Shown: in pieces, positions 22,814 to 43,814 of the stretch | How the letters are laid out: each line of letters starts with the position of its first letter | Numbering within the stretch: the first letter of the stretch is position 1 | Assembly: GCA_017615615.1 (NCBI GenBank) | Contig: JAFZZW010000084.1 | Coordinates: 1-43,814 of the forward strand | Length of the DNA: 43,814 nt | From: Bacteroidales bacterium | GTDB taxonomy: Bacteria; Bacteroidota; Bacteroidia; Bacteroidales; UBA932 | Direction: 5' to 3' | Position numbers and translations under genes: made by a program | The notes under the pieces: generated by a model | Seen by the model: the letters and a program-made list of their open reading frames with translations, nothing else | Database searches by the model: none | Told to the model about the DNA's origin: nothing

Positions 22814-22827
22814 CAAACTTTTAACCC

Positions 22828-22875
22828 GCGAGGAAAGATTTGCCTGCTTGCAACCTCGCCTTAAAAAATGCTAAA
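22828..22875 (+). promoter_or_regulatory. SAM-II riboswitch upstream of metK
   Basis: Stem P1 is GCGAGG (22828-22833) with CCTCGC (22854-22859). The 20-nt loop between them contains GATTTG and GCTTGCAA. The 3' tail reads TTAAAAAATGCTAAA and runs directly into the ATG. These blocks in this order match the SAM-II (SAM-alpha) class as recalled from alphaproteobacterial metA and Sargasso Sea metX leaders. The tail, which would form the pseudoknot when SAM is bound, touches the start codon, so SAM should block translation of the SAM synthetase gene. Covariance scoring was not possible here. Confidence 0.82.
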
Positions 22876-24153: not shown

Positions 24154-24611
24154 GTTCCCGCCGCGACAAGCCCCACCGCATCCAGATCAGCAACAAGCGG
24201 GCGTCGTTCGACTACGAGTTCATCGAGCAGTACGACGCCGGCATCGTCCTCGTGGGCACCGAGATCAAGTCTCTTAGGGCCGGCAAAGCCTCGCTGCAGG
24301 ACGCCTGGTGCTATTTTTCGGGCGGTGAGCTGTATGTCCGCGGGATGAACATCTCAACCTACTTCTGGGCCTCCAAATGGGGCAGCCACGAGCCCGCGCG
24401 CGACCGCAAGCTCCTGCTCACAAGGCGCGAGCTGCGGCATCTCGCCCAGGCCGTAAAGAACAAGGGGCTCACCATAGTCGCCGTCCGGGCCTTCATCTCC
24501 GAGAACGGCTACGCCAAGCTCCACATCGCCCTGGCCCGCGGCAAAAAAGAATACGACAAGCGCGCCACCATCCGCGAAAAAGACATCCGCCGCGAAATGG
24601 AGCGGGGGTAG
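24150..24611 (+). CDS. smpB: SsrA-binding protein SmpB
   Basis: Binds tmRNA and delivers it to stalled ribosomes in trans-translation. The 153-residue product has the hallmark stretches [38 protein letters not shown] and the basic C-terminal tail ([14 protein letters not shown]), with normal length. The ATG lies in the overlap ATGA with the metK stop, so it should be translated by coupling and may share SAM control, an unusual pairing. The tmRNA gene is not in the window. Confidence 0.96.
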
Positions 24612-24720
24612 TCAGTTTGTTTTTTTCAATCGTTCACTGGAAAGACCTCATCCGGGACAACGGCATGACCGAGACCCGGTACAGCAGCGTCTACGCCCCC
24701 TACCTACGCCCCCTGCCGGC

Positions 24721-25146
24721 GTCGGCTGACGCCCTAATGGCTTCGGGGTCTCTAAAGCAGGGGGTACCGTCGGCTCCCTGGTATTCCAGCCCCCCGTCGG
24801 CTGACGCCTACATGGCTTCGGGGCCTCTAAAGCGGGGGTTACCGTCGGCTCCCTGGTTCTCCAGCCCCCCGTCGGCTGACGCCTACATGGCTTCGGGGCC
24901 TCCAAAGCGAGGGTTACCGTCGGCTCCCTGGTTCTACAGCCCCCGTCGGCTGACGCCCTAATGGCTTCGGGGCCTCCAAAGCGTGAGTTACCGTCGGCTC
25001 CCTGGTTCTACAGCCCCCCGTCGGCTGACGCCCTGATGGCTTCGGGGCCTCCAAAGCAGGGGTTACCGTCGGCTCCCTGGTCTTCCAGCCCCCCGTCGGC
25101 TGACGCCCTAATGGCTTCGGGGCCTCTATAGCGGTGGTTACCGTCG
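24721..25146. repeat. 75-bp tandem repeat array, six units
   Basis: Units start with GTCGGCTGACGCC at 24721, 24796, 24871, 24945, 25020 and 25095 (periods 75, 75, 74, 75, 75). Every unit has a second CCGTCGGCT and a short CTGG-TTCT-CCAG hairpin. The units are about 90% alike by eye, with changes at a few fixed positions. They are contiguous, with no unique spacers. The same unit, reversed, occurs at 27798-27960. The 626-bp gap between smpB and the C69 peptidase (24612-25237) holds this array and no supported gene. Confidence 0.95.
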
Positions 25147-25237
25147 CCCCCCACTCTGCAGGTCCTTCCGTGGCAAGGCGGCGTCAGGAGACAACTGGAG
25201 TCTTCCAGACAGATTGGCAATTCCGAAAGCAGCTATT

Positions 25238-26776: not shown

Positions 26777-26852
26777 TCCGTGTTGGATTATTTGGCATGC
26801 AAGATAGTTTATTTCGAAAAAGAATCCTATATTGCGGAAAAATAAAACTATT

Positions 26853-27725
26853 ATGAATGACTTCGATAAATTGTGTTTCCACGTCTATTCAGACGGCAAG
26901 CGGGCCGACATTCCTTTCGGCACTGACGTTTTAAAAATCTACGCAATGAACTCCATAGCTATTGTGGCCTGTATCGCCGGAGTCAGAGTTCTGTGCCTGA
27001 TAGTCGGCGACACCCATTTGCATGTGGTGATTTATGGAACACGAAAGTCTGCAGAGGTCTTTCGCGTCCTACTGAAATCCAGAATCGCAAGGCATTACAC
27101 GATTAACGGAATGTCGGATCTCCTTGGCGATGGCTTTTTTCTCGTTTGCGATCCTATTCAAAACAGGGAAGAGACAATGGCGAAAATCATCTACACTCTA
27201 CGCAATTCCCTTGATTTTTCACGGCAGATGCCTTGGGAATACAGATGGGGAGTTGGGAATCTTTATTTCACTCAGCATTTGAATGTGTACGGGAACAGAA
27301 TTGGTGACTTGTCCTATCGTAAACTTTGCAGACTGTTCCACACAGAAGTTAAGATTCCGAAGGAATGGCTATATGATGACAGCGGGATGATTATGCCTGC
27401 CAGTTATGTTGATTATGAATTCGTTGAGCGGTTGTTTGGCAGTCCGAGGGCGTTTATTGCATTTCTGTACGTAAGGAAGGAGGATGAGCAGAAAATGAAG
27501 GAGCAACTGAATGCAAGGTATTTGGAGGAAAGAAGTATCGAAGATTTGCGCAAGATTGCTAATAAATTATGTATCAGCACGTTTGGACGGGTGTTAAGAA
27601 ATACGACGATAAAGAATCGCATAAAAGTAGCTGCAGCAATGCTGAATAACCATACAGCGACAAAGTCCGAAAGCCTGGCTAAAGCAGTATTTTTAAATAT
27701 GGAGGATTTGACTCGCCTCCTTTAA
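26853..27725 (+). CDS. HUH (Y1) transposase-like protein, RAYT-like
   Basis: 290 residues. An HUH motif, HLH at 55-57 in GDTHLHVVIYG, stands where Y1 transposases have NHxH. A tyrosine at 114 in KIIYTLRNSLDF, followed by MPWEYRWG, matches the catalytic-Tyr region of REP-associated tyrosine transposases (Y...NPV...P..Y.WS). A basic helical C-terminal part (about 230-290) may bind DNA. Start at ATG 26853 preferred over a TTG at 26832. The gene is clearly more AT-rich than its neighbours and lies between inverted 75-bp arrays, suggesting acquisition and a link to the repeats. An alternative reading is a domesticated single-strand DNA-binding HUH protein. Confidence 0.62.
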   Translation: MNDFDKLCFHVYSDGKRADIPFGTDVLKIYAMNSIAIVACIAGVRVLCLIVGDTHLHVVIYGTRKSAEVFRVLLKSRIARHYTINGMSDLLGDGFFLVCDPIQNREETMAKIIYTLRNSLDFSRQMPWEYRWGVGNLYFTQHLNVYGNRIGDLSYRKLCRLFHTEVKIPKEWLYDDSGMIMPASYVDYEFVERLFGSPRAFIAFLYVRKEDEQKMKEQLNARYLEERSIEDLRKIANKLCISTFGRVLRNTTIKNRIKVAAAMLNNHTATKSESLAKAVFLNMEDLTRLL

Positions 27726-27797
27726 CGGATTAATAACATTCTTATTGAAGATGCCACCCGACGGTAGCGTCTGTTTTGGTGTGTCTATAGCCAATAG

Positions 27798-27960
27798 GGC
27801 GTCAGCCGACGGGGGGCTGGAGAACCAGGGAGCCGACGGTAACCCACGATGGAGTGGCCTCAAAGCCGTGGAGGCGTCAGCCGACGGGGGGCTGGAGAAC
27901 CAGGGAGCCGACGGTAACCCACGATGGAGTGGCCTCAAAGCCATCAGGGCGTCAGCCGAC
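27798..27960. repeat. 75-bp repeat array, inverted copy (two full units plus a partial third)
   Basis: GGCGTCAGCCGAC, the reverse complement of the unit start at 24721, occurs at 27798, 27873 and 27948 (period 75). The two full units are almost identical to each other. The array fills most of the 287-bp gap between the HUH gene and radA. No gene is supported in it. Confidence 0.94.
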
Positions 27961-28012
27961 GCGCAGAGATAAAGCAACGCCCCACGCCTTCGAAAGACCG
28001 GGGCGGCAACAG

Positions 28013-29530
28013 TCACCCCTGGAACAGCGCCTTGACCAGTTCCGGGACGTCGGCGACCTTGACGACTTTGATTTTGCCGGCGGAGGATCCGGCAAAGGAA
28101 GAGGCGGAGGATCCGGCGGAGGAACCGGCGGAGGATCCGGCAAAAGATCTGGCGGAGGAACCGGCCGGGGAGCCGGCGGAGGAGCCGGCAAAGAATCCGG
28201 CGGATGAACCAGCGGAGCCGCCGCCATGGGCGCCGCCGAGGGAGCTGTAGGAGCTGACGAAGATTTTCTTGAAGCCAAGGCGGGCGGCCTCGCCGATGCG
28301 GCGGTCGATCTGGCCGACGGGGCGGATCTCGCCGCTGAGGCCAACCTCTGCGGCGAAGCAGACATCCGGTGGAATGGGATAATCGAAGTTGGAGGACAGC
28401 ACCGCGCAGATGACGGCCAGATCGACCGCCGGGTCGCTGACGCGGAGGCCGCCGGCCATGTTGAGGAACACGTCCTTGGCGCTCAGGCGGAAGCCGGCAC
28501 GCTTCTCCAGAACGGCAAGAAGCATGTTGAGGCGGCGGGTGTCGAATCCCGTGGCCGAACGCTGCGCCGTGCCGTAGGCGGCGGAAGACACCAGGGCCTG
28601 CACTTCGAACAGAAGTGGTCTGGTGCCGTCGAGCATGGCGGCGATGGCTGTGCCGCTCAGGCCCTCCTCATGCATGGGGATAAGCATTTCCGACGGATTC
28701 TCCACCTCGCGGAGACCGCTGCCGGTCATCTCGAAGACCGCCAGTTCCGCTGTGCTGCCGAAGCGGTTCTTGATGCTGCGTAGGATGCGGTATGAGCCGC
28801 GGTTCTCCCCCTCGAACTGAAGTACGGCGTCCACAATATGCTCAAGTATCTTGGGACCGGCGATGTAGCCGTCCTTGGTGATATGCCCGATGAGGATAAC
28901 CGGTATGCCGCTTTCCTTTGCAAAACGCAGCAGCCTGGCTGCCACTTCCTTGATCTGGCTGACCGAACCCGGAGTGGACTCCACGGCATCCGTGTACATG
29001 GTCTGGACGGAATCGACAATCATCAGGTCCGGGGCCACCAAACCAGCCTGCTCGATGATATCTTCGATGCGGGTTTCGCAGAATATGAGACAGCCGTCGC
29101 CGATGCCGTCCGGAGAAAGGCGCGCGGCACGCATTCCCACCTGCTTCTCGCTCTCCTCTCCAGTAACGTACAGGGTTTTCAAAGAGGGGCATCCCAAAGG
29201 TATCTGCAGGCTGAGCGTCGATTTGCCTATGCCGGGCTCGCCGCCGATGAGGATCAGCGATCCGGGCACTATTCCTCCGCCGAGCAGGCGGTCCAGTTCG
29301 CCGATGCCCAGTCTGATACGGGCCTCCGACGAACGGTCGATGTCCTTGAGCCTGCGGGGCACGCGTCCGCTCTTTTCCTTCCTGGACGCACTGCCGCCGG
29401 AGCGTGCGGGCTCTGCGGGAGCCTCCACAAAGGTGTTCCACTCGCCGCACGCCGGGCAACGGCCGAGCCACTTGGGACTTTCGTTGCCGCAGCTGGAGCA
29501 GAACCAGACTGTCTTATTCTTGCTTGCCAT
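28013..29530 (-). CDS. radA: DNA repair protein RadA (Sms), with internal repeat insertion
   Basis: RecA-like ATPase/branch-migration helicase acting in recombination. Domains: four-cysteine zinc finger (CSSCG at 11-15, CPACG at 25-29), RecA-type ATPase with Walker A GGEPGIGKST (96-105), the RadA-specific KNRFG motif (about 255) and a C-terminal Lon-like domain. The product is 505 residues against the usual ~455. The excess is residues 436-485, a Gly/Ser/Ala repeat set between FVSSYS and the final KIKVVKVADVPEL. The start overlaps the end of the NlpC/P60 gene by 17 bp, so the two are probably co-transcribed. Confidence 0.95.
   Translation of the reverse strand: MASKNKTVWFCSSCGNESPKWLGRCPACGEWNTFVEAPAEPARSGGSASRKEKSGRVPRRLKDIDRSSEARIRLGIGELDRLLGGGIVPGSLILIGGEPGIGKSTLSLQIPLGCPSLKTLYVTGEESEKQVGMRAARLSPDGIGDGCLIFCETRIEDIIEQAGLVAPDLMIVDSVQTMYTDAVESTPGSVSQIKEVAARLLRFAKESGIPVILIGHITKDGYIAGPKILEHIVDAVLQFEGENRGSYRILRSIKNRFGSTAELAVFEMTGSGLREVENPSEMLIPMHEEGLSGTAIAAMLDGTRPLLFEVQALVSSAAYGTAQRSATGFDTRRLNMLLAVLEKRAGFRLSAKDVFLNMAGGLRVSDPAVDLAVICAVLSSNFDYPIPPDVCFAAEVGLSGEIRPVGQIDRRIGEAARLGFKKIFVSSYSSLGGAHGGGSAGSSAGFFAGSSAGSPAGSSARSFAGSSAGSSAGSSASSFAGSSAGKIKVVKVADVPELVKALFQG
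28076..28225. repeat. 12-bp minisatellite inside radA
   Basis: About 150 bp of near-perfect 12-bp units (plus-strand form GGAGGATCCGGC and variants) encode a run of AGSS-type tetrapeptides (AGSS, AGFF, AGSP, ARSF, ASSF). The frame is maintained. It lies near the C-terminus of RadA and is absent from ordinary RadA proteins as I know the family. Confidence 0.9.
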
Positions 29531-34082: not shown

Positions 34083-35600
34083 CTACTCAACTATGCAGAA
34101 ACCCTCAAACCAGTTGGGGTTGGAGATGGTATAGAGGAGTTCGCCGTTCTTGAAGATATGGTTGGATGTCGCGATGTAGCTGTCGCCCGACGACGTTACC
34201 CTGATACTGCTTTCGGAGCTACTCAAAAACTGCTGATCAACTTCAGTTTCTATCGTCCGGACAGCATTTCCGTCACATAGTTCGGTAATCACAGCCTTCT
34301 CGCCCCATTTCAGGAATGCCGTATGAAGATGACTGCCGGCCAGACTTAACGCATATTGGAAATAATCCGGGGAGTGGTAAATGGCTGAACAATCAGTTAC
34401 GTTTTTATACAGCATCGCATCATAACCGCCTTTCTGTTTGAGTGTCAGGACATATACGTCTCCGCTTTCGGAAATATCAACGAGACCATCATAAGAGTAA
34501 TCCTGCAGTATGGAAAAAGTCCACTCGCCGGACGATGAGTATTTATACAAACCGAGGTGATACCCGTTGGACGGGTCTCGATACGAGGCCGCAATATACA
34601 GGTCGCCGGACGGAGAAAGGGCGCAGTTAATACTGTACATATTATGATAATCGCCGGGAATGACGTCGCTCATGACCGTCCCGTCCGGATTGACGACCAC
34701 GACATAATTATACTCCCTGTCGTTCCTTTGATACACTATTGCGACTCTTCCGTTTCGTGCAGCCATATCCATGGTCGGATCGTCCCAGCTCGTCTTGTTG
34801 ATTGTATAAACGGGTTTACGGTCTTTGCACACATAGAATATGTATTCGTGGTTCCAGGAATCATAATACGCCTCGTGAGAGTAAAGTGACTGGCCATCGG
34901 CACATATTGCCATTATGTAATACAATTTGATTTTGTCTTCGTCGAAAGCACCGTTCAACGGGTCCGGTTCTCCGTCGAGATACAGCAGTTCGCCCTTGCA
35001 GAAATAATAGACCTTGTCCTGGGAAGCCCTGATTACCGTAACCGCGCAGCTCGCTGTGTAGTCGCCCTCATCGGTCTTGACCGTTATGACGGCGCTGCCG
35101 GGCTTGAGGGCCTTGACGCATCCGGAAGCGTCAACGCCGGCGACCTCGGGGTCGCTGCTGGAGAATGAAACGGACGGGTTGGTGGCGCCCGCCGGTTCAA
35201 CGGTGGCAGTGAGCGAATACTCTTCGCCTTTGATGAGTTCCAGCTCCGTCTTGTCGAGCTTGACTCCGGTCACCGGGACAAAAGGCTTGCAGACAGAGAC
35301 GACGCAGGCGTCGGTCTTGCCGCCGGCAAGGGTTGCGACCGTCACTATGGCCTGGCCCTCGCCCACTGCGGTGACGGTACCTTCCTGGTCAACGGTGGCG
35401 ACGGCGGGCGCGGTGCTGCTCCAGCTGAGGGCTGTGTTGGTGGCGCCCGCCGGTTCTATGGTGGCAGCCAGCACTGTGGTCTCACCGATGGTGAGCGAAA
35501 GGTCGTGCTTGCTGAGGGTGACGGACGACGGGTCGATTTCCTGGGTGCATCCGGCGGCAAGGGCAAGAAGCGCCGCGAGCAGGGCGATGTATTTTCTCAT
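34083..35600 (-). CDS. Big_2-domain lipoprotein, paralogue 1 (two Ig-like domains)
   Basis: 505 residues: lipoprotein signal (Cys18 in LAAGCTQEID), two Big_2 (bacterial Ig-like) domains (about 24-105 and 110-190), then a ~310-residue C-terminal region shared with the other two paralogues. That region opens with LYLDGEPDPLNGAFD, contains VCKDRKPVY, and has repeated blade-like motifs (SPSGDLYIA, SESGDVYVL, SSGDSYIAT), suggesting a beta-propeller; it ends GFCIVE. A surface adhesin or sensor is likely. It is the shortest of the three and lacks the conserved palindromic terminator found after the other two, since the S41 gene converges directly on it. Confidence 0.85.
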   Translation of the reverse strand: MRKYIALLAALLALAAGCTQEIDPSSVTLSKHDLSLTIGETTVLAATIEPAGATNTALSWSSTAPAVATVDQEGTVTAVGEGQAIVTVATLAGGKTDACVVSVCKPFVPVTGVKLDKTELELIKGEEYSLTATVEPAGATNPSVSFSSSDPEVAGVDASGCVKALKPGSAVITVKTDEGDYTASCAVTVIRASQDKVYYFCKGELLYLDGEPDPLNGAFDEDKIKLYYIMAICADGQSLYSHEAYYDSWNHEYIFYVCKDRKPVYTINKTSWDDPTMDMAARNGRVAIVYQRNDREYNYVVVVNPDGTVMSDVIPGDYHNMYSINCALSPSGDLYIAASYRDPSNGYHLGLYKYSSSGEWTFSILQDYSYDGLVDISESGDVYVLTLKQKGGYDAMLYKNVTDCSAIYHSPDYFQYALSLAGSHLHTAFLKWGEKAVITELCDGNAVRTIETEVDQQFLSSSESSIRVTSSGDSYIATSNHIFKNGELLYTISNPNWFEGFCIVE

Positions 35601-35783
35601 TCTATGATACGGTTTTGCCGCACAAACCGGGCAGCTTGCGCGTTGTTGTTATTTATGTTGCTGATTACTAATGCGTTAATGCCCCCCCTGTAGAGGGGCC
35701 ACAGACAAGGCTTGTATGATGTGCCAAAGCCATTCTAATTTCGCAGACTTCCAAAAATACGAATAATCCGGGATAATTGGAAC
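35601..35783 (-). promoter_or_regulatory. Promoter and structured 5' leader of Big_2 paralogue 1
   Basis: Reading on the minus strand: GTTCC at the -33 position, TATTTTTG (35752-35759), a C7 tract on the plus strand (35682-35688, G7 in the transcript) in a CCCCT/AGGGG hairpin, then a hairpin at 35620-35640 just before the ATG. The same order occurs before both other paralogues. No gene lies in 35601-35940. Confidence 0.7.
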
Positions 35784-35855
35784 GCCAGAGGCTGTTTTTG
35801 TTCCATTTCACCTTAAATCAGTGCTGTTTGGAACAAAACCAAGTCATATCGTTCC
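35779..35855. repeat. Twin GGAAC/GTTCC inverted repeats, copy 1
   Basis: GGAAC at 35779 and 35830, GTTCC at 35800 and 35851: two hairpins or operator-like dyads in tandem, directly upstream of the Big_2 promoter. Conserved in all three modules. Confidence 0.7.
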
Positions 35856-35907
35856 AAAGCAACGCCGGTGCACCCTCCCTGTCATTCTGAGTCGCCTCCT
35901 CCCTGTC

Positions 35908-35934
35908 ATTCTGAGTCGCACAGCGACGAAGAAT
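35908..35934. repeat. Palindromic REP-like element, copy 1
   Basis: Arms ATTC..GTCGC and GCGAC..GAAT around ACA. A partial duplicate of the left arm (GTCATTCTGAGTCGC) stands just before it at 35881-35895, showing tandem growth of the element. Confidence 0.85.
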
Positions 35935-35947
35935 CTAAAAAAAGTGT

Positions 35948-35955
35948 TATCTTTG
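35948..35955 (+). promoter_or_regulatory. Promoter box of mini-gene, copy 1
   Basis: TATCTTTG, a full TAnnTTTG match, 22 bp before the mini-gene ATG. No clear -33 TTG. Confidence 0.65.
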
Positions 35956-35977
35956 TCCTGATATAACAAAGACAGAT

Positions 35978-36019
35978 ATGAATCTCAGAGACATCAAGAA
36001 AGGTCATAAAGAATTGTAA
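35978..36019 (+). CDS. 13-residue mini-ORF, copy 1
   Basis: Encodes MNLRDIKKGHKEL and stops with TAA. Promoter, ORF and a downstream hairpin make a ~110-nt unit found three times in the window. It could be a small peptide gene, a small RNA, or the decayed start of a longer gene: from memory, a small Bacteroidales protein family begins in a very similar way, so a truncated relic is a serious alternative. Confidence 0.45.
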   Translation: MNLRDIKKGHKEL

Positions 36020-36043
36020 TCTTTCGAGTTTCTCAAGTATAGG

Positions 36044-36069
36044 AAAAGGCCGCAGCGATGCGACCTTTT
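36044..36069. terminator. Bidirectional terminator hairpin, copy 1
   Basis: Stem AAAAGGCCGCA with TGCGACCTTTT, loop GCGA. T-rich on the plus side for the mini-gene, and A-rich on the other, so it can also serve the RhuM-like gene that ends at 36099. One C-A position on the plus strand becomes a G-U pair on the minus strand. Confidence 0.75.
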
Positions 36070-36098
36070 GGTTTAATTCCATCGAATTCGACAGAATA

Positions 36099-37118
36099 CT
36101 ATTTTGAATCATTGTTATCTCCCAATAGTAGGCTCACCTCTTTATCAAAGTCGGAGACTATTCTTTGCGTTTTATTGAAAGCTTCATATTCCTCTTCGGC
36201 TTTGCGCTGGGCATCTTCATGGGAGATTTGTCCTTTGCTACGGTCAGGCAGAATTTGAAAACGCCTGAAAGCCAGAAACTCATTTACACTGGCCGCAAAT
36301 TGCTCCATGGTAAAGGTGTTCTCGTTCTCAATGAGGTCTTCGATGTAGTCGAAGTATCCGGTAACGGCTCTTTCCAACCGCTTGATTTCTTTCTCTTGCA
36401 GATAGTTCTTTGCCACGGAAACATCTGATTTGAGTATGCGTCCGTCCGGGGAATTCTTCCAGGTTGTCAGCCCCATGTGCTCTTTGCTTCTGTCTGCGCT
36501 TTCATATACGATTTCAGCCGCAGTCTTTCCAGTAATTGCATAATGGAACTTGTTCTGAATCATAGCATAGAAATCCTTTGTAGTAGGGGCCGCACGGTCA
36601 TAGTCGATGCTGCATTCCGCATAGATATCTGTGATTTGCTGCCAGATTCTACGCTCGCTGGCCCGAATGGAACGGACGCGTTCCAGGAGTTCCCGGAAAT
36701 AGTCCTTGCCGAACAAGGCTCCGCTATCTTTCATCCGACGGTCGTCCAGCACGAATCCCTTCTTTATATACTCTTTTAAGATCCCCGTTGCCCAGATGCG
36801 GAATGCGGTGGCTCTAGCCGAAGAAACGCGATATCCGACAGCAATGATGGCATCAAGGTTATAATACATGATTTTTTCATCAGATATGCCTCTGGCACCA
36901 CTCTGTGCGGTATTCAAAAATTCTTTGATTACCGCGGAGCGCTCTAATTCCCCCGTCTCAAACACCTTCCCCAGATGGTAGGAAATGTTTTGAACTGTAC
37001 AGTCAAACAAAGAGGACATAGCCTTCTGGGTGGCCCATATGGTTTCATCCCGTAAGACCACATCCACCTTCATATCCTCTGTTGGTGTATTATAAATCAG
37101 CAACTGAAAATCTTTCAT
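36099..37118 (-). CDS. RhuM-family protein
   Basis: 339 residues. It begins MKDFQLLIYNTPTEDMKVDV and has the family phrases TIWATQKAMSSLFDC, YYNLDAIIAVGYRVSS, FRIWATGILKEYIKKGFVLDD and ERRIWQQITDIYAECSIDYD. RhuM proteins (Virulence_RhuM) occur in pathogenicity islands and defence or prophage regions; the molecular function is not settled. Start chosen at ATG 37118: the frame extends to 37166, but the promoter box (37136-37143) lies inside that extension. The gene is more AT-rich than the surrounding core. It sits alone between two Big_2 modules. Confidence 0.9.
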   Translation of the reverse strand: MKDFQLLIYNTPTEDMKVDVVLRDETIWATQKAMSSLFDCTVQNISYHLGKVFETGELERSAVIKEFLNTAQSGARGISDEKIMYYNLDAIIAVGYRVSSARATAFRIWATGILKEYIKKGFVLDDRRMKDSGALFGKDYFRELLERVRSIRASERRIWQQITDIYAECSIDYDRAAPTTKDFYAMIQNKFHYAITGKTAAEIVYESADRSKEHMGLTTWKNSPDGRILKSDVSVAKNYLQEKEIKRLERAVTGYFDYIEDLIENENTFTMEQFAASVNEFLAFRRFQILPDRSKGQISHEDAQRKAEEEYEAFNKTQRIVSDFDKEVSLLLGDNNDSK

Positions 37119-37135
37119 GGCATCATCATTTTCCA

Positions 37136-37166
37136 CAAAGTTAAAACAAACAAAAGCCAAAACCAA
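37136..37166 (-). promoter_or_regulatory. Promoter of the RhuM-like gene
   Basis: Minus strand: TTG (37164-37166), a 20-bp spacer, TAACTTTG (37136-37143). The -33 box lies inside the 3' arm of the terminator hairpin of the upstream Big_2 gene. An almost identical promoter precedes the KilA-N gene at 40816. Confidence 0.8.
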
Positions 37167-37196
37167 GAGACTACAAGCTTGTAATCCCTTGGTTTT
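37159..37196 (-). terminator. 38-bp palindrome/terminator after Big_2 paralogue 2
   Basis: A near-perfect palindrome centred on AAGCTT, with arms beginning AAAACCAAG and ending CTTGGTTTT. Two positions are mismatched on the plus strand but pair as G-U on the minus strand, which argues that the minus transcript is the functional one. It is followed by a T-rich run. The same 38 bp recurs at 40839. Confidence 0.8.
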
Positions 37197-37229
37197 GTTG
37201 ATAGTTTTGCTATGTCGGAGGTGCTTGGG

Positions 37230-39521
37230 CTATTCCACTACGGCAAAGCCGGTGAGCCAGGTGTCAGTTATCGTGAAGAGAGTTTTTTCGTTCTTGTAAA
37301 TATGATTCTCGGTGGCAACGTACATGTCGCCGGAAGACGAGACAATCAGTGGATTCTTGATACAGATATCGTTCAGATTCAATGTCCTTACCGGTTTGCC
37401 GTCGCAGGCTTCTTCCATTGTTAAACGACCGCCGGTTTCGCATTGAACCGCCGTATAAACATGACCGCCTGTCGCGTGCAACCCATATCTCTCGTTTCCA
37501 TTCACAGTGGTATTATAAACGACTTCTTCATTTTTCAGGAGTTCGACGTCCGTGCCGTTGCCAGACAGAATGTATCTGTCGCCTTCGTCAGAAATGCCAA
37601 TAGCCGAGAAACCATTAAAATCGGGCTTTATCAAGGTCTCAGTCAGGGTGCCGTCGTTAGCATACTCATATATTGCCATATAGCGACTGCCGAAGGAATC
37701 CCAAATTACGTCAACGATATCGAACGTTCCGTCAGGTGCCATAGCGCAGAACATCTTCGTCCAAGAAAACGACACAGCTCTTCCTGTAATGTATTTTCTT
37801 GAACTCGTTCCATCGTGATTTATCCTGACTATATAAAATGAATCCTCGCCCTCCCAAAGAACAATTCCTACATATCCATTGCAGCTGGACATACCTATTA
37901 AATCGTATGCAGAATGTGCATCGACTTTGCAAACAGGCTTGCGGTTTTTGCACAGGTATAAAACATCGCCGCCAGATACATAACTGCCTTCATTCAACAC
38001 TATGTCGGAATAACGTTCCAGGCTATATAAATCAGAGCCATCCGAACATATGCCTTTCACATAATTAAAACTGGAAATAAAGGAATCGGTTTCCCGGTCA
38101 AAAGCCCCACTAAGGGGATCCGGCACTCCATTGACGTACAAATCAGTTGTGCTGTCCACAGTATAATACACCCTCGCGCCCGCTTCCTTGCTCACCGTCA
38201 CGGCGCAGCTTGCGGTGAATCCGCCTTCCTCTGAGGTGGCCGTGATAGTGGCAGTGCCCTCAGCGAGCGCCACCACCTTGCCTTCTGAAGTCACAGTGGC
38301 AACATCGCCGTTGCTGGAGGTCCAGCCCACTTTTTTGTTGACAGCGTGGTCCGGGGTGTAGAGGACGGTGAGCGTGTATGCCTCTCCGACCTTGAGCGTG
38401 AGTTCGGTGGGATTGAGGCTGATGCCCTTGAGGGTGTTGTCCTGGGTGACGGTGACCTCGCAGAAGCCCTGCTTGTCGGGGTATTCCTTGGAACGGGCGG
38501 AGATCCTGGTGGTGCCAGCGGCAACGGCGGTCACAAGGCCGCTGGCATCGACTTTGGCGATGTTGTTGTCGAAAGACGCCCATTCAACCTCCTGGCTGGC
38601 GCCGGCAGGGGAGACGGAGGCGCTGAGCTGTGCCGTCTTGCCTTCGGCGATCTCGACGCTTGCGGGAGTGATGGTAACTCCTTCAACCACTGCCGCTACC
38701 GTTACCTTGCACTCGTCCGTGAAGCCACCATCGACAGTAGAGATGGTGACGGTAGCCTCGCCGTAATCGACGGCGGTGACTACGCCCTCGTCGGAGACAG
38801 TGGCGACTTTGGTGTCGCTGGAGGCGAATTTGACGGAACGGTCGGTGGCGGATTCGGGATCGACGTACCACTGGAGGGTGGCGGTTTCCCCCTTCTGTAG
38901 GGTCAACTCGTTGGGCTGCACCCACACACCGACTACGGGAATGGTGTATTTGAGAACCGTCACTTCGCACTTTGCGGTGAACCCGCCGTCTTCCGTTTTG
39001 ACGGTGATGGTGGCGGTGCCTTCGCTGTGGGCGCGGACGTAGCCGAGGTTGTCGACGCTTGCTACCTCGTCGTTGCTGCTGGTGAAGGTAACGCTTTGAT
39101 TGCTGGCGTTCGCGGGCTCCACGGTGGCGGTGAGCTGGTAGGTGTCGCCCTCCGTCATCTCATAGCTGGTCCTGTCCAGTTTAACGCCCGTTACCGGTAC
39201 TGGCTTCTTGGTCACCGTGACGATACATGCGTCCGTGAGACCGCCGGCGAGGGTGGATACGGAGATGCTGGCCTGGCCTTCGGTCAGTGCAGTCACCTTG
39301 CCGTTCTTGTCTACATCGGCTACACTGGGCTTGGAGCTGCTCCAATTGACGGCGGTGTTGGTGGCGTTGGAGGGGGCGATGGTTGCCGTCAGCGAGGCGG
39401 TCTCACCTTCGGCGAGCGTGAGCTCGTGCTGGTCCAGCCGGACGGAGGTGGGGTCAACTTCCTGGGTGCAGCTGGAAGCAAGGGTGAGGAGCGCTGCGAT
39501 TGCGAAAAGGATTCGTTTCAT
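37230..39521 (-). CDS. Big_2-domain lipoprotein, paralogue 2 (five Ig-like domains)
   Basis: 763 residues: lipoprotein signal (Cys18 in LASSCTQEVD), five Big_2 domains of 80-85 residues (about 22-105, 108-192, 194-278, 280-362, 364-448), then the shared C-terminal propeller-like region (opens LYVNGVPDPLSGAFD, contains LCKNRKPVC, ends GFAVVE). Compared with paralogue 1 there are three extra Ig-like domains. The C-terminal regions are clearly related but diverged, so the duplication is not recent. Likely surface-exposed binding protein; ligand unknown. Confidence 0.88.
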   Translation of the reverse strand: MKRILFAIAALLTLASSCTQEVDPTSVRLDQHELTLAEGETASLTATIAPSNATNTAVNWSSSKPSVADVDKNGKVTALTEGQASISVSTLAGGLTDACIVTVTKKPVPVTGVKLDRTSYEMTEGDTYQLTATVEPANASNQSVTFTSSNDEVASVDNLGYVRAHSEGTATITVKTEDGGFTAKCEVTVLKYTIPVVGVWVQPNELTLQKGETATLQWYVDPESATDRSVKFASSDTKVATVSDEGVVTAVDYGEATVTISTVDGGFTDECKVTVAAVVEGVTITPASVEIAEGKTAQLSASVSPAGASQEVEWASFDNNIAKVDASGLVTAVAAGTTRISARSKEYPDKQGFCEVTVTQDNTLKGISLNPTELTLKVGEAYTLTVLYTPDHAVNKKVGWTSSNGDVATVTSEGKVVALAEGTATITATSEEGGFTASCAVTVSKEAGARVYYTVDSTTDLYVNGVPDPLSGAFDRETDSFISSFNYVKGICSDGSDLYSLERYSDIVLNEGSYVSGGDVLYLCKNRKPVCKVDAHSAYDLIGMSSCNGYVGIVLWEGEDSFYIVRINHDGTSSRKYITGRAVSFSWTKMFCAMAPDGTFDIVDVIWDSFGSRYMAIYEYANDGTLTETLIKPDFNGFSAIGISDEGDRYILSGNGTDVELLKNEEVVYNTTVNGNERYGLHATGGHVYTAVQCETGGRLTMEEACDGKPVRTLNLNDICIKNPLIVSSSGDMYVATENHIYKNEKTLFTITDTWLTGFAVVE

Positions 39522-39704
39522 AGCGGGATACGGTTATGGTGCACAAACCGGGCGGTTTGCGCGAGGATGGTGTTTATATTATTGATTATTAGCGATTTAC
39601 CCCCCCCTATGGAGGAGCTGCAGATAAGGCTGATATGACGGGATAGAGCCACTGATTCCATCGTAACCGTTCAAATATACGTATTATTTGCAAGAATTTG
39701 GAAC
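39522..39704 (-). promoter_or_regulatory. Promoter and structured 5' leader of Big_2 paralogue 2
   Basis: Minus strand: TATATTTG (39672-39679), a plus-strand C8 tract (39600-39607), and a hairpin of GCAAACC with GGTTTGTGC around GCCC (39541-39560), 20 bp before the ATG. Same order as in copies 1 and 3. No gene is seen in 39522-39845. Confidence 0.7.
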
Positions 39705-39776
39705 GCCAAAAGCTGTTTTTGTTCCATTTCACCCTAAATCAGTGCTGTTTGGAACAAAACCATGGCATATCGTTCC
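39700..39776. repeat. Twin GGAAC/GTTCC inverted repeats, copy 2
   Basis: GGAAC at 39700 and 39751, GTTCC at 39721 and 39772; same spacing as copy 1. Confidence 0.7.
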
Positions 39777-39805
39777 AAAACAACGCCGGTGCACCCTTTC
39801 CTGTC

Positions 39806-39832
39806 ATTCTGAGTCGCATAGCGACGAAGAAT
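39806..39832. repeat. Palindromic REP-like element, copy 2
   Basis: Arms ATTC..GTCGC and GCGAC..GAAT around ATA, followed by an A-run and the mini-gene promoter. Confidence 0.85.
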
Positions 39833-39845
39833 CTAAAAAAAGTGT

Positions 39846-39853
39846 TATCTTTG
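39846..39853 (+). promoter_or_regulatory. Promoter box of mini-gene, copy 2
   Basis: TATCTTTG, 22 bp before the ATG, as in the other copies. Confidence 0.65.
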
Positions 39854-39875
39854 CCCCGATTTAACAAAGACAGAC

Positions 39876-39917
39876 ATGAACCTCAGAGACATCAAGAAAG
39901 GTCTTAAAGAATTGTAA
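39876..39917 (+). CDS. 13-residue mini-ORF, copy 2
   Basis: Encodes MNLRDIKKGLKEL, one residue different from copy 1. Differences from copy 1 within the ORF are one silent change (AAT to AAC) and one His-to-Leu change. Confidence 0.45.
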   Translation: MNLRDIKKGLKEL

Positions 39918-39941
39918 TCTTTCAAGTCTCTCAAGCATAGG

Positions 39942-39967
39942 AAAAGGCCACAGCGATGTGACCTTTT
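39942..39967. terminator. Bidirectional terminator hairpin, copy 2
   Basis: AAAAGGCCACA with TGTGACCTTTT, loop GCGA. A C-G pair of copy 1 is replaced here by an A-T pair on both arms, a compensatory change that supports the stem. It also serves the KilA-N gene ending at 39976. Confidence 0.78.
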
Positions 39968-39975
39968 CTTCGTTA

Positions 39976-40797
39976 TTATTTCAATAGTTTCCTTGATGCG
40001 GCTCCATTCTCGAGAGCTGTCATTTGCTGAATGGCAATAGCATTGAGTCTGCGGAGCCGTTCTGCCTGCGAAAGTCCATCATTGATAAACACGGCGTTCA
40101 GGTTCTCCATGTTGGACAGGCAAATGAGCTGATTAATCGTGGCATAATCACGAATATCCCCTTCGAGTTCCGGATTGAACTCCCGCCACTCCTTAGCTGT
40201 CATACCAAACAAAGCAACATTCAGAACGTCAGCTTCATTTGCGTAGATTAATGAAACCTGCACCTCTGACAGTTCTTCCGGAATAAGATTCTGCTTAATG
40301 GCATCCGTATGAATACGATAGTTAATCTTAGAGAGCTCTCGTTTTGCGGTCCACCCAAGCAATTGCTGCTCAGCACTTTTCAACCGCTGGAACTCTTTAA
40401 CCAGATACAGCCGGAATTCAACTGAAATCCATGAGGCAAACTCGAATGCGATATCGGTTTGTGCGTAGGTTCCCCCATATCTGCCTGATTGAGATACTAT
40501 GCCTATAGCATTTGTTGCGTCAAACCAACGGGAAGGAGACATGGTAAAATCGTTCAGCCCAGCTTGCTGTCTAAACCCCTCGAATTCGAGGGGGTTAAAA
40601 GCCGGATTTTAGAGAGTTTCCCATATTCCAAGGAATTCTATGGTGTTGCGGTTACGCATCCAGTTAGCTATCACTCCGTTTGGATCCATCCAATTCTTCT
40701 GGCGGGCTATGTCAGTGATGCATATATAATCAACACCATCCTTAGACATGGTCCTAACCACTACATCTTTTACAACTAACTCGTTCTTCTTTTCCAT
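39976..40797 (-). pseudogene. KilA-N domain protein interrupted by one in-frame stop
   Basis: Read from ATG 40797, 62 codons (MEKKNELVVKDVVVRTMSK..., then ITDIARQKN and GVIANWMRN) run to a TAA at 40609-40611, and the same frame continues with NPAFNPLEFEGFRQQAGLND, MSPSRWFDATNAIGI and SGRYGGTYAQTDIAFEFASW to 39976. Relatives read ETL(H/Y)NP at this point, so a single base change of a Tyr codon would create the stop. The 273-codon length is normal for KilA-N proteins of phage and mobile elements. An internal ATG at 40542 could yield a C-terminal fragment. The promoter is intact. Confidence 0.85.
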
Positions 40798-40815
40798 AAC
40801 CTCAAACGTTTTCCA

Positions 40816-40846
40816 CAAAGTTAAAACAAAGAAAGGCCAAAACCAA
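40816..40846 (-). promoter_or_regulatory. Promoter of the KilA-N gene
   Basis: Minus strand: TTG (40844-40846), a 20-bp spacer, TAACTTTG (40816-40823). Nearly the same sequence as the RhuM promoter at 37136, again overlapping the palindromic terminator. Confidence 0.8.
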
Positions 40847-40876
40847 GAGACTACAAGCTTGTAATCCCTTGGTTTT
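40839..40876 (-). terminator. 38-bp palindrome/terminator after Big_2 paralogue 3
   Basis: Identical in sequence to the palindrome at 37159-37196. It lies 34 bp beyond the stop of the Big_2 gene. Confidence 0.8.
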
Positions 40877-40910
40877 GTGGATAGATTTGCTATGTGCGAT
40901 GCGCCTGGGG

Positions 40911-43214
40911 CTATTCCACTACGCAGAAGTAGCTGATATAGTGGATTTCGCCGGGAACTGTGAACAGGACAGCGTCGTTCTTGTAGATCCGTTTGCCGGT
41001 TGCAAGGTAGACGTCTCCGGAGGTGGTGGCATGCATGCTGTGCAGGCCGCTGTCGATGTTGACGGTGCGGAGCAGGTTGCCGTCGCAACGTTCTGTGGCT
41101 TTTTTCTCATCTTCGTCCAAGGCGACAGTGTAAATATGCCCCCCGGCAATGCTCAGGTCGATATTTACGTATTTATTGTACTGGTCTGTCACGGAATACT
41201 CCTCTCCGTTTTTGTACAGTACGGCATAGTAGTCGTCATCCTGATATAATGTAAAGACATATACGTCCCCTTCGTCCGATATGTCGATTTGGCCGGGATA
41301 CTCGTGCTTTGGCAAGTCGTAATAAGACCACTCTTTGTCTGTGCCGTATTTGTAAACGCCAAGATGGCGGTCCCCAAATGGATCTTTAAAGTCAGGAGCA
41401 ATATATAAATCTCCGGAAGGCGAGAAGGCGCAGGGCATATCATACATATTCTTATAGTCTCCCGGTATATCACTCTTTGTGACCGTTCCGTCGGGATCGA
41501 CGATAATCAAATAGTTGTTTTCACCGCTGGTGGAATAATAGGTAAATGCGACTTTGCCGTCACGGGCTGCCATTCCATGCACGTTATCGGGATCTTTAAA
41601 GTACTCATCCAAACGGTAAAGAGGCTTTCGGTTTTTACACAGGAATAATGGATTCCCGCTGCTGATGGAGCTTTGATACCATTCCAAAGTATATAGGTCA
41701 TGGCCGTCGGCGCGCATCCCAATTAAATAAGCGAACGAGTAGCTGGCATCATTGATGATTACTTCAAAAGCCCCGGAAAGCGGATCCGGAGTCCCGTTCA
41801 GGTAGAGTATTTTTTTCGAGGTCAGATAATTATTGATGTAACAGTAAACCCTTGTCCCCGTAGTTTTGCCGACCATCACTTTGCAGCTTGCTGTTAAGCC
41901 GCCCTCATCAGAGGTTGCCGTAACGATGGCTACGCCTTCCTCCTTGGCCGTCACTTCGCCCTCGGCGGATACCGAAGCCACGTCGGCGTTGTCCGTCGAC
42001 CAGCTGACTTTCTTGTTGGTGGCGTACTCGGGAGTGTACACAACTTGCAGCGTCTGTGCCTGGCCTACGGTCAGCGTGAGCTCAGACGGATTGATACTGA
42101 TTCCCCTCAATGTGGGATCCTTGATGACCGTGATCTCGCACGATGCGCTTACGTCCGTAAAAGCCTGGGAGCGTGCGAAGATTTTTGTCGTGCCCTCTTT
42201 TACGGCAGTGACGAGGCCGTTGGCGTCAACTTTTGCCACATTGGTGTCATAAGAGACCCATTCCACCGTCTGGTCGGCATTGGCCGGACTTACAGTTGCG
42301 CTCAACTGGAACGTCTTCCCTTCGGCAAGCGTTACCGACGCAGGCTCGATGGTGAGGCCGGTCACTTCAACTTTCTTGACCGTCACCTCGCAGGCGGCTT
42401 CGATGCCTCCGCAGCTGGCAACTATCAAGGTCTTTCCGGCGCCCACTGCCGTTACCTTGCCTTCCTGGTCAACCATTGCGACAGCTTCGTCGATGGTCCG
42501 CCACTGGACGGTCTTGTCGGTGGTATTCTCCGGGAGCACGGTAGCCGTGAGCACCGCCGTTTCGCCTTCGGTCAGCTCCAGCGTCTCCCTGTCCAGCGTG
42601 ACGCTCTCTGCGTTGACGGTGACGGCGTTGACGATAATGTGGCAGGTTGCGGTGAATCCGCCGTCCTCGGTGGTGGCGGTAACGTCACCCTCTCCGGGGA
42701 TAAGTCCGGTTACCTTGCCGATATTGTCAACGCTGATCACGTTCTCCGGGCTGGCGCTCCATATGACGTTCTTGTTTGTGGCGTTGGTGGGGAGCACCGT
42801 GGCGGAAAGATAAACGCCGCTGCCTTCCTCGATGCCTATCTTGTCGTAGTTGAGGGAGATCGACTCGACCGGGATGACTCTCATCTTCACGATTACGGCG
42901 CAGTCGGCCCGGAAGCCGCCGTCCACCGTCGTTACGGTGATGGTGGAAGCGCCCATGGCCATAGCGATGACGGTGCCGTCGTCGCTCACCGTGGCCACGT
43001 TTGGTACGGCTGACGTCCAGGTGACGCCTTTGTTGGTGGCGTCCTCCGGCAGCACGGTGGCTGTGAGATTGTGGGTTTGGCCCTCGAGCAGTTCGATCTC
43101 TGTGTCTGAGAGCCTGACGCCGGTTACGGCCACCTCGGCGGGAGTCTCCACGCAGGAAGCGAGAAATGCGGTGGCAAGCACAGATGAAGTCAGGAAAGCA
43201 AGGATTCGTTTCAT
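40911..43214 (-). CDS. Big_2-domain lipoprotein, paralogue 3 (five Ig-like domains)
   Basis: 767 residues: lipoprotein signal (Cys21 in FLASCVETPA), five Big_2 domains (about 28-113, 114-199, 200-282, 283-367, 368-453), and the shared C-terminal region (LYLNGTPDPLSGAFE, LCKNRKPLY, SPSGDLYIA, SGDVYLATG; ends YFCVVE). Domains 4 and 5 are closest to domains 4 and 5 of paralogue 2, whereas domains 1-3 differ more, which suggests shuffling or separate expansion of the N-terminal part. Confidence 0.88.
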   Translation of the reverse strand: MKRILAFLTSSVLATAFLASCVETPAEVAVTGVRLSDTEIELLEGQTHNLTATVLPEDATNKGVTWTSAVPNVATVSDDGTVIAMAMGASTITVTTVDGGFRADCAVIVKMRVIPVESISLNYDKIGIEEGSGVYLSATVLPTNATNKNVIWSASPENVISVDNIGKVTGLIPGEGDVTATTEDGGFTATCHIIVNAVTVNAESVTLDRETLELTEGETAVLTATVLPENTTDKTVQWRTIDEAVAMVDQEGKVTAVGAGKTLIVASCGGIEAACEVTVKKVEVTGLTIEPASVTLAEGKTFQLSATVSPANADQTVEWVSYDTNVAKVDANGLVTAVKEGTTKIFARSQAFTDVSASCEITVIKDPTLRGISINPSELTLTVGQAQTLQVVYTPEYATNKKVSWSTDNADVASVSAEGEVTAKEEGVAIVTATSDEGGLTASCKVMVGKTTGTRVYCYINNYLTSKKILYLNGTPDPLSGAFEVIINDASYSFAYLIGMRADGHDLYTLEWYQSSISSGNPLFLCKNRKPLYRLDEYFKDPDNVHGMAARDGKVAFTYYSTSGENNYLIIVDPDGTVTKSDIPGDYKNMYDMPCAFSPSGDLYIAPDFKDPFGDRHLGVYKYGTDKEWSYYDLPKHEYPGQIDISDEGDVYVFTLYQDDDYYAVLYKNGEEYSVTDQYNKYVNIDLSIAGGHIYTVALDEDEKKATERCDGNLLRTVNIDSGLHSMHATTSGDVYLATGKRIYKNDAVLFTVPGEIHYISYFCVVE

Positions 43215-43399
43215 AACGGGATACGGTTATGCCGCACAAACCGGGCGGTTTGCGCGTTGTGGTTATTTAAATTGCTGATTACTAATGCGTTAATACCCCC
43301 CCCCTGTAGAGGGGCCACAGACAAGGCTTGTATGATGTGCCAAAGCCATTTTAATTTCGCAGACTTCCAAAAATACGAATAATCCGGGATAATTGGAAC
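43215..43399 (-). promoter_or_regulatory. Promoter and structured 5' leader of Big_2 paralogue 3
   Basis: Minus strand: TATTTTTG (43368-43375), a plus-strand C9 tract (43296-43304), and a hairpin at 43234-43253 before the ATG. Nearly identical to copy 1 over most of its length. No gene lies in 43215-43540. Confidence 0.7.
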
Positions 43400-43471
43400 G
43401 CCAAATGCTGTTTTTGTTCCATTTCACCTTAAATCAGTGCTGTTTGGAACAAAACCATGGCATATCGTTCC
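43395..43471. repeat. Twin GGAAC/GTTCC inverted repeats, copy 3
   Basis: GGAAC at 43395 and 43446, GTTCC at 43416 and 43467; spacing as in the other copies. Confidence 0.7.
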
Positions 43472-43499
43472 AAAACAACGCCGGTGCACCCTTTCCTGT

Positions 43500-43527
43500 C
43501 TTTCTGAGTCGCATAGCGACGAAGAAT
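43500..43527. repeat. Palindromic REP-like element, copy 3
   Basis: Same as copy 2 except for one base near the left end (CTTTCTGAG instead of CATTCTGAG). Confidence 0.82.
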
Positions 43528-43540
43528 CTAAAAAAAGTGT

Positions 43541-43548
43541 TATCTTTG
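43541..43548 (+). promoter_or_regulatory. Promoter box of mini-gene, copy 3
   Basis: TATCTTTG, 22 bp before the ATG, as in the other copies. Confidence 0.65.
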
Positions 43549-43570
43549 CCCCGATATAACAAAGACGGAT

Positions 43571-43612
43571 ATGAATCTCAGAGACATCAAGAAAGATCAT
43601 CAAGAATTGTAA
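43571..43612 (+). CDS. 13-residue mini-ORF, copy 3
   Basis: Encodes MNLRDIKKDHQEL. The first eight residues are unchanged in all three copies; the end varies. Confidence 0.45.
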   Translation: MNLRDIKKDHQEL

Positions 43613-43637
43613 TCTTTCGAGTCATACAAGGATAAGA

Positions 43638-43659
43638 ACAGGCCACAGATGTGGTCTGT
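43638..43659 (+). terminator. Terminator hairpin of mini-gene, copy 3
   Basis: ACAGGCCACA with TGTGGTCTGT, loop GA, followed by a T-rich run. The sequence differs from copies 1 and 2 at paired positions on both arms, while pairing is kept. Confidence 0.8.
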
Positions 43660-43660
43660 T

Positions 43661-43690
43661 TTGTTTTTTATGTCAAAAGCGGTATATTTG
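43661..43690 (+). promoter_or_regulatory. Promoter of the nucleotidyltransferase gene
   Basis: TTG (43661-43663), a 19-bp spacer, TATATTTG (43683-43690). The -33 box lies in the T-run of the mini-gene terminator. Confidence 0.78.
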
Positions 43691-43696
43691 CATTGT

Positions 43697-43814
43697 ATGA
43701 GGCTAATTAAACGAAATATGGCTCAAATAGTTGCTTTGTGTGAGAAGCACAAAGTAATGCAGATATATGTGTTTGGGTCTATACTTACCGGGAAGTTCAA
43801 CAAGAAAAGCGACA
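43697..43814 (+). CDS. MNT-type nucleotidyltransferase domain protein, 5' part only
   Basis: 39 codons before the window ends. The stretch YVFGSILTGKFNKKSD is the start of the minimal nucleotidyltransferase motif (GS followed by the D-x-D of the active site, of which only the first Asp is visible). Proteins of this type are often antitoxins of HEPN/MNT pairs or part of larger defence genes. The ATG at 43697 is only 6 bp past the promoter box; the in-frame ATG at 43718 is an equally good start. AT-rich like the other cargo genes. Confidence 0.72.
   Translation, partial: MRLIKRNMAQIVALCEKHKVMQIYVFGSILTGKFNKKSD

Follow-up and report, generated by a model that had tools for sequence, protein, structure and literature searches.

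The window considered here, the whole contig C53 (JAFZZW010000084.1, 43,814 nucleotides) of a Bacteroidales bacterium (assembly GCA_017615615.1; 1.93 Mb in 92 contigs, completeness 72%), ends in a region where lipoprotein genes with Big_2 domains alternate with single genes of phage or defence type. With a probability of roughly three in four, gene cassettes were inserted here in tandem, by site-specific integration at the 5' end of a single small, conserved gene; it is called the anchor gene hereafter, and its protein commonly begins MNLRDIKK. The 25-bp anchor start that each insertion would leave behind is called a scar. Read in these terms, the features are the following.

34083–35600, minus strand: Big_2 lipoprotein 1 (PF02368, 1.9e-27)
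35606–35977, strand not assigned: shared upstream block and right-end promoter TATCTTTG, of the type preceding the anchor gene
35978–36002, plus strand: scar 1, start codon and opening 8 codons of the anchor, with the crossover AAGAAAG at its end
36003–36078, plus strand: left end of cassette 1, with motif GTCATAAAGAATTGTAATCTTT, stop codon and hairpin (terminator by eye)
36003–39900: cassette 1 (left end, RhuM, palindrome/promoter, Big_2 lipoprotein 2, block, right end)
36099–37166, minus strand: RhuM-family cargo (PF13310, 5.9e-102; PADLOC candidate defence family PDC-S05, 8e-149)
37129–37229, minus strand: terminator-like palindrome and TTG-20-TAACTTTG promoter of RhuM
37230–39521, minus strand: Big_2 lipoprotein 2
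39876–39900, plus strand: scar 2
39901–43595: cassette 2 (left end, KilA-N, palindrome/promoter, Big_2 lipoprotein 3, block, right end)
39901–39976: left end of cassette 2, with hairpin
39976–40796, minus strand: KilA-N cargo (PF04383; PADLOC PDC-S22)
40809–40909: palindrome/promoter of cassette 2
40911–43214, minus strand: Big_2 lipoprotein 3
43571–43595, plus strand: scar 3
43596–43814, plus strand: start of cassette 3 (left end, terminator hairpin at 43635–43662, first 39 codons of a nucleotidyltransferase gene)

Repeated modules and cargo in the window

The upstream block is present in three copies (35606–36078, 39507–39976 and 43200–43671), which are about 88–89% identical between the first and the third (452 bp), 83% between the second and the third (487 bp) and 79% between the first and the second (449 bp). 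A fourth copy, 78–95% identical, lies on another contig of the same genome (C74:1441–1796), upstream of a further Big_2 gene; the three Big_2 modules counted in a preliminary description of this DNA thus hold for the window, but the genome contains four. The repeated block of about 450 bp, the mini-genes, the palindrome and the promoter named in that description are all in place. The palindrome shared by modules 2 and 3 is real, its longest identical run measuring 43 bp (37156–37198) within a 101-bp repeat (37129–37229 and 40809–40909, 91% identity), and at both palindromes the TTG-20-TAACTTTG promoter is found on the minus strand, directed into the RhuM and KilA-N genes. The cargo differs from unit to unit as had been claimed, with PF13310 in RhuM, PF04383 in KilA-N and PF01909 (3.5e-5) in the nucleotidyltransferase start at the window end, and RhuM and KilA-N are indeed AT-rich, with a GC content of 0.453 and 0.449, respectively, against 0.54–0.57 for the Big_2 genes and the left flank. 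The KilA-N frame is interrupted by one in-frame stop (40609–40611), and the parts on both sides match the family.

When modules 1 and 2 are aligned base by base, their junctions are sharp and homology does not fade gradually. An identity of 91% extends over the initial 67 bp of the cassette, as far as 36069 and 39967, after which similarity is lost abruptly and nothing significant follows until about 37129 and 40809, where it resumes at TTTTCCACAAAG, just ahead of where RhuM and KilA-N are likely to start. The match continues through the palindrome and promoter, is mostly weak inside the Big_2 genes (66–68% in the two longest stretches) and is strong again in the upstream block. The cassette left end reads GTCATAAAG and the right end finishes with AAGAAAG. 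REP-like (repetitive extragenic palindrome) repeats, TGTCATTCTGAG...CGACGAAGAATCT, adjoin the scars (39802–39834 in the window) and recur, in several genomes of the genus, at loci L013, L020, L024 and L025. Both palindromes and the hairpin after the third mini-gene were detected in a terminator scan, whose total of 9, compared with 10.4 in shuffled sequences, represents no excess. To the left of Big_2 lipoprotein 1, in the left-most module, no scar was found; this gene is either the native upstream neighbour of the anchor or the remnant of an older cassette.

The anchor gene, its scars and the shared cassettes

The mini-genes, 13 codons long and starting at 35978, 39876 and 43571, are in a frame that begins MNLRDIKK. 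Relatives searched with this sequence returned genes, most of them 90–95 codons long, beginning MNLRDIKKDI(D/E)Y and preceded by the same type of TATCTTTG promoter. Mini-gene and anchor agree in promoter type and first 8 codons, and diverge thereafter. As judged from these alignments, each mini-gene is the anchor promoter with the first 8 codons of the anchor, cut at AAGAAAG and joined to the left end of a cassette; it is thus a truncated anchor start and not the small gene for which it had been taken. A TAnnTTTG box lies upstream of 48 of the 58 start sites listed, 1.4 being expected by shuffling.

Among 120 genomes of the genus (completeness at least 85%, the window's own being included at 72%), the anchor gene is present in 114. 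Judging by its many species, the genus may be Candidatus Cryptobacteroides. Five genomes have two anchor matches: both are complete genes in G149, both are parts of a single gene in G221, and in G104, G121 and G132 the second is a fragment. The anchor protein matches no family in NCBIfam and none above cut-off in Pfam; its PDB matches (18 sequences, E up to 1), which are 18–26-residue stretches to repeat proteins and two weak longer ones (E 0.33 and 0.59), were discounted. The other neighbour of the anchor is a D-Ala-D-Ala carboxypeptidase gene in the window's genome, a semialdehyde dehydrogenase gene in G016 and MutL in G149. The anchor of the window's own genome (C74:2987–3271, locus L070) has a start, MSGYHSLRGIKKDIDY, that differs from the usual one, its N-terminus being MSGYHSLRGIKK in place of MNLRDIKK; in G095 the N-terminus is likewise replaced, by MGVHSLRHIKK. 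In view of these replacements, the anchor protein seems to tolerate an altered N-terminal start.

With a sequence-only model built from 20 scars (cut-off of at least 33.8 bits and a reach to model position 48, weaker rows and rows equal to the anchor itself being left out), 41 scars were found in 28 of 316 genomes of the genus, comprising the window's own (G000) and others of completeness at least 80%; the 20 seed scars, which match by construction, are counted within the 41. In all 24 cases with scar and anchor on one contig, the scar is upstream and on the same strand, at a distance of 831–12150 bp. These cases correspond to 23 of the 41 strong scars and one weaker scar in G255, the remaining 18 strong scars, which include the three of the window, being on contigs without a visible anchor and hence outside the orientation count. 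In an order-wide scan of 294 sampled genomes, only the window's own genome gave a match.

Consecutive sites delimit 32 intervals of 831–9737 bp with a GC content of 0.40–0.60, some of them bounded by weak sites beyond the 41 and some representing the same cassette in different genomes. Units often comprise one to three genes, and the longest array has four intervals (four scars and the anchor, in G339). A multi-gene interval at L072 (8852–16421) includes genes for a TetR-type regulator, an outer membrane efflux protein and an ABC-2 transporter. From the 88 open reading frames (ORFs) listed in intervals, 40 cargo proteins were searched, 9 of which have no Pfam family at E 0.001. Lipoproteins among them carry Big_2, BACON, leucine-rich repeat (LRR) or peptidase M64 domains, and the other cargo includes a thioredoxin-fold protein, Bro-N, RhuM, HepT/nucleotidyltransferase, YoeB, a STAS-like/ATPase pair and regulators; genes for excision, replication or packaging were not seen in this set. 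Ten proteins were submitted to PADLOC, which, besides the RhuM match given above, assigned KilA-N to PDC-S22 (8e-93), a nucleotidyltransferase to PDC-S09 (4.8e-28), Bro-N to PDC-S13 (9.5e-115) and a helix-turn-helix protein to PDC-M64C (6e-14), and gave no match for the other five.

The same cassettes occur beside different neighbours in different genomes. One of them is common to five genomes, its left end starting directly after AAGAAAG, and has four different left flanks, G149 and G097 sharing one that is the end of another cassette. A cassette with a BACON gene precedes another cassette in G339 and the anchor in G300. Computed without gap columns, identities between cassettes far exceed those of the adjoining anchor body: 99.4% versus 72.6% for G339/G300, 99.6% versus 77.7% for G339/G149, and 97.7% versus 80.4% for G000/G176, where the neighbouring gene region reaches 73.4%. 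Moreover, the left ends of cassettes with differing cargo share a short motif just past the crossover, AAAGAATTGTAATC or a GGTTACC form. Near-identical units with different neighbours are what functionally characterizes a gene-cassette array, and as far as the aligned genomes tell, the units described here behave accordingly. Gene content and order at the locus are not constant among relatives, and their differing cargo strongly supports the recombination hotspot with exchangeable cargo that had been proposed at the outset.

The idea of a Big_2 chassis, by contrast, did not hold. The repeated unit is the scar-bounded cassette, and the full 450-bp block was found solely in the window's genome and G176, matches in the 60 other genomes searched being limited to its repeat and scar part. 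A RhuM gene of G134 (~85% identical, split over two frames), together with its palindrome/promoter, immediately precedes the anchor; a Big_2 gene is missing there and no scar can be recognised on the left side, which indicates that Big_2 and cargo modules can be separated from each other. In genome searches for the palindrome, as had been suggested, the 81-bp palindrome/promoter query matched in 7 of 200 genus genomes, own included, and the 101-bp query in 3 of 61. At two loci of other genomes, both without an anchor, related palindrome/promoter units stand before a Bro-N gene (L210, ~803–899, related to 37129–37229; PF02498, 2.9e-6) and, by eye, before a Bro-N-like gene (L211, ~1950–2023). 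The terminator-plus-promoter cap may belong generally to such single-gene cargo.

Contig C74 carries, in order, the end of a HepT-like gene (C74:2–160, PF01934, 7.1e-10), a palindrome, Big_2 lipoprotein 4 (PF02368, 2.1e-26), the block, the right end of a serine-recombinase element and the anchor, which adjoins the D-Ala-D-Ala carboxypeptidase gene. The same stretch (97.7% identical) is present in G176, with more of the HepT-like gene ahead of it; it is contained there in JAFZVQ010000085, from Bacteroidales bacterium RGIG8139 of the water-buffalo rumen. A single cassette would be expected to contain both genes, the nucleotidyltransferase that begins at the window end and the HepT-like one whose end opens C74; from this, and given the matching stretch of G176, C74 probably continues the array of C53 and links its cassette 3 to the anchor.

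Farther to the left in the window, a SAM-II riboswitch (22824–22884, 54.3 bits) is the sole Rfam match at the gathering threshold, and a repeat with a 75-bp shift occurs in tandem (24720–25152 and 27789–27961), an inverted copy being ~2.8 kb off. When loci L119 and L071 are compared with window 23502–28863, the anchor is found in G183 between homologues of the window's 24.6 kb and 28.2 kb regions; G022, unlike G183, keeps the flank order of the window, which denotes a local flank rearrangement.

Serine recombinases and the route of insertion

As sequence comparison shows, each insertion cuts the anchor within about codons 6–8, at a core AT(C/T)AA that is usually AT(C/T)AAGAAAG. The displaced promoter and start remain as a mini-gene closed by a stop codon, usually followed by a terminator-like hairpin, and stop and hairpin may insulate the cargo, one or few genes per cassette, from the displaced promoter. 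The cassette right end brings a promoter, an ATG and the first codons in frame; because it supplies both promoter and start, the anchor would stay readable and the target would be rebuilt for the next insertion. Sequence comparison allowed us to show repeated insertion, the displaced and stop-closed start, the promoter and start carried by the right end, the sharing of cassettes and the presence of a serine-recombinase element at the same codons. Regarding their integration, serine recombinases from helper elements that come and go might act in trans on cassettes lacking a recombinase, and candidate defence and toxin-antitoxin genes could stabilise or pay for the array. In integrons, toxin-antitoxin cassettes have such a stabilising role.

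The helper elements came to light in three array loci, where a local tyrosine-recombinase profile hit a gene for a 198-amino-acid (aa) protein. Beside it lies, in G408, G319 and G095, the gene of a 502–503-aa large serine recombinase (PF00239, 1e-20, and PF07508, 1.5e-6, in G408), which matches a PHROG integrase. Further genes encode a 179-aa protein, a candidate directionality factor, and, in two of the elements, a ~997-aa protein whose match to helicases falls below cut-off. No more than 100 bp separates the serine recombinase gene from a scar in each of the three elements, the scar of G095 being weak. G095 and G434 form a filled/empty pair: both have the same cassette on the left, and G095 contains an extra 9.7-kb element, lying between ATGAATCTTCGTGACATTAAG and ATATTAAGAAAGACATTGAG and inserted at the common core ATTAAG, whose right end supplies a TATCTTTG box and a new in-frame start. 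With its recombinase domains and this pair of sites, the helper qualifies as a large-serine-recombinase integrative element. Between G408 and G319, the serine recombinase is 93.6% identical and the left ends agree; the one of G095 shows 50–52% identity to both, and its left end is different. The 198-aa tyrosine recombinase is 95–97% identical in the three genomes despite the differing left ends and is therefore disfavoured as the integrase. As the left ends vary with the serine recombinase and not with this protein, the former is most likely the integrase of the helper elements.

Traces of such an element also appear in the window's own genome. The start MSGYHSLRGIKK of its anchor holds the inverted partner of the G319 left end: the G000 right end, taken together with the G319 left end, gives two inverted arms that agree at 16 of 18 positions and enclose 14 bp, the half-sites coming from two genomes, and no single intact attachment site of the attP type was seen. 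Beside this anchor, a 116-aa gene is homologous to a gene of the G095 element. The inverted partner and this homologue show that the right end of a serine-recombinase element now precedes the genome's own anchor, to which it gives a substitute start. The serine recombinase itself was not found in the window's genome, which is 72% complete, only the right end of the element being seen. Of relevance for the cassettes, the sequence of their left ends just past the crossover is similar to TCATAAAGAATNGT of the G319/G408 element, from which we infer that the same recombinase family inserts them and hence that a serine recombinase may move recombinase-less cassettes in trans.

Several observations weigh against the integration model. 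A close serine recombinase is found in 3 of 316 genomes versus scars in 28, with three more distant matches (E <= 1e-30) in addition; outside the three elements, neither the local tyrosine-recombinase profile nor the 40 cargo proteins yielded a cassette recombinase, no integrase common to the arrays was found, and only two tyrosine recombinases each are listed for G000, G171 and G019. The cassette right ends are nearer to the native target half than to the right end of the element itself, so that a cassette circle would give a mixed site and not a canonical attP, and wild-type large serine recombinases usually require attP x attB. The contrast in identity is weaker for G095/G434 (cassette 98.4%, anchor 89.3%) and weak or absent for G022/G070 (94.1% and 92.3%). 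The TAnnTTTG box is missing at 10 of the 58 start sites, the hairpins after mini-genes 1 and 2 (scars 1 and 2) were seen by eye and are absent from the terminator scan, and C53 and C74 are separate contigs. As for host XerC/XerD, considered as a mover in view of the two tyrosine recombinases of G171 and G019, it was set aside because the site does not seem to resemble dif, no search aimed at dif having been made.

The cassettes may alternatively have spread mainly by homologous recombination, through natural transformation or recA crossovers between the promoter-plus-start repeats at their ends (roughly 40–85 bp by eye), a serine recombinase having founded only some insertions. The promoter and 25-bp start repeated at the cassette junctions, the ~450-bp blocks repeated in the window's genome, the rarity of the recombinase (3/316) and the variation of the 25-bp start between copies of one cassette are all in keeping with this scenario. 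Yet the AAAGAATTGTAATC/GGTTACC motif is situated past the homologous start, where homology-based exchange has no need of it, and the crossover region is the one used by the serine-recombinase element. We thus regard this scenario as unlikely, though it is the main rival and a serious candidate for the later spread of cassettes, and the preliminary suggestion of a mechanism working through homologous modules, to which it comes closest, as not the best reading, given the shared left-end motif and the targeting of the same codons by the serine-recombinase element.

Very improbable, in our view, is that the mini-gene works as a leader peptide or small RNA controlling the Big_2 genes: promoter box and short ORF have been preserved in each of the three copies, but the mini-gene is oriented away from the Big_2 genes, is found next to other genes in relatives, has the first 8 codons of the anchor and shows no conserved structure. 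We give hardly any credence to a true integron with a tyrosine integrase IntI and folded attC sites, despite the small tandem cassettes, the toxin-antitoxin cargo and the shared short sites. Indeed, no fold is shared (0 predicted or consensus pairs over 20 scars), the cassettes have their own promoters, and among array-locus ORFs the tyrosine-recombinase profile matched just the 198-aa gene of the helper (3 loci), besides one hit at E 0.5; next to the arrays no IntI was seen, the assemblies being incomplete. Local duplication of a lipoprotein gene with chance insertion of unrelated genes may account for the repeated Big_2 part, the modules being paralogous, but is refuted as a full account by the recurrence, with other cargo, of these scars, their orientation and the anchor in 28 of 316 genomes.

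Site-specific integration into the anchor remains our preferred reading. A broader proposal is more tentative and falls somewhat short of an even chance, namely that the array is a non-integron platform of one genus in which helper serine recombinases serially capture recombinase-less cassettes, so that the array grows and shuffles surface and candidate-defence genes between species.

Significance and comparison with known systems

If this reading is true, a group of uncultured Bacteroidales, one member of which comes from the water-buffalo rumen, owns a cassette-capture site. Its scar sequence allows arrays to be located in any assembly, and the cargo of mobile small cassettes can therefore be listed. 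RhuM, KilA-N, Bro-N and nucleotidyltransferase genes, one of each having been tested, match PADLOC candidate phage-defence families. Moreover, insertion into the 5' end of a gene would be made harmless, and even repeatable, when the insert brings a promoter and a start codon. In the literature searched on Bacteroidales gene cassettes, Cryptobacteroides and SCC/serine recombinases (SCC, staphylococcal cassette chromosome), no such array was apparent from the titles and beginnings of abstracts of the top-ranked results.

Several known systems share part of this logic. In integrons, small exchangeable cassettes, toxin-antitoxin pairs among them, are arranged in tandem at one anchor point. The present array is like them in cassette size, tandem arrangement, toxin-antitoxin cargo and single anchor point, and unlike them in that no IntI-like gene and no attC-like fold were seen and in that its cassettes would bring promoters and rebuild the target gene. 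The pdif (XerC/XerD) modules of Acinetobacter consist of one gene or one toxin-antitoxin pair each and are moved by a recombinase acting in trans. Small modules of this kind are also found here, where a recombinase may likewise act in trans, whereas the sites do not seem dif-like, are chromosomal and are anchored in a coding gene. Integrative and conjugative elements (ICEs), cis-mobilizable elements (CIMEs) and phage satellites provide cases in which non-autonomous elements use the helper's att site and accumulate there. Non-autonomous elements similarly pile up at one site in the array, unlike these systems in that excision, replication and packaging genes were not found among the 40 cargo proteins.

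The closest in logic are SCC and the Enterococcus cassette chromosome (ECC). SCC elements without ccr exist. ECC combines large serine recombinases, a fixed target gene, ~50-bp att sites with imperfect inverted repeats, variable cargo and remnants, and its target lies downstream of rlmH (PMC6222049). The array has in common with both a large serine recombinase, a single chromosomal target gene, variable cargo and remnants at the site. It departs from them in its target, which is the 5' end of the MNLRDIKK gene and not rlmH, placing it outside a definition based on rlmH; in the exchange of promoter and start codon at each insertion; in the size of its units (0.8–9.7 kb); and in the distribution of the recombinase, which is absent from the two complete cassettes of the window and is found only in the helper elements of other genomes. 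The locus hence reads as an integration hotspot combined with a cassette array, SCC-like in its logic and located at the 5' end of a gene.

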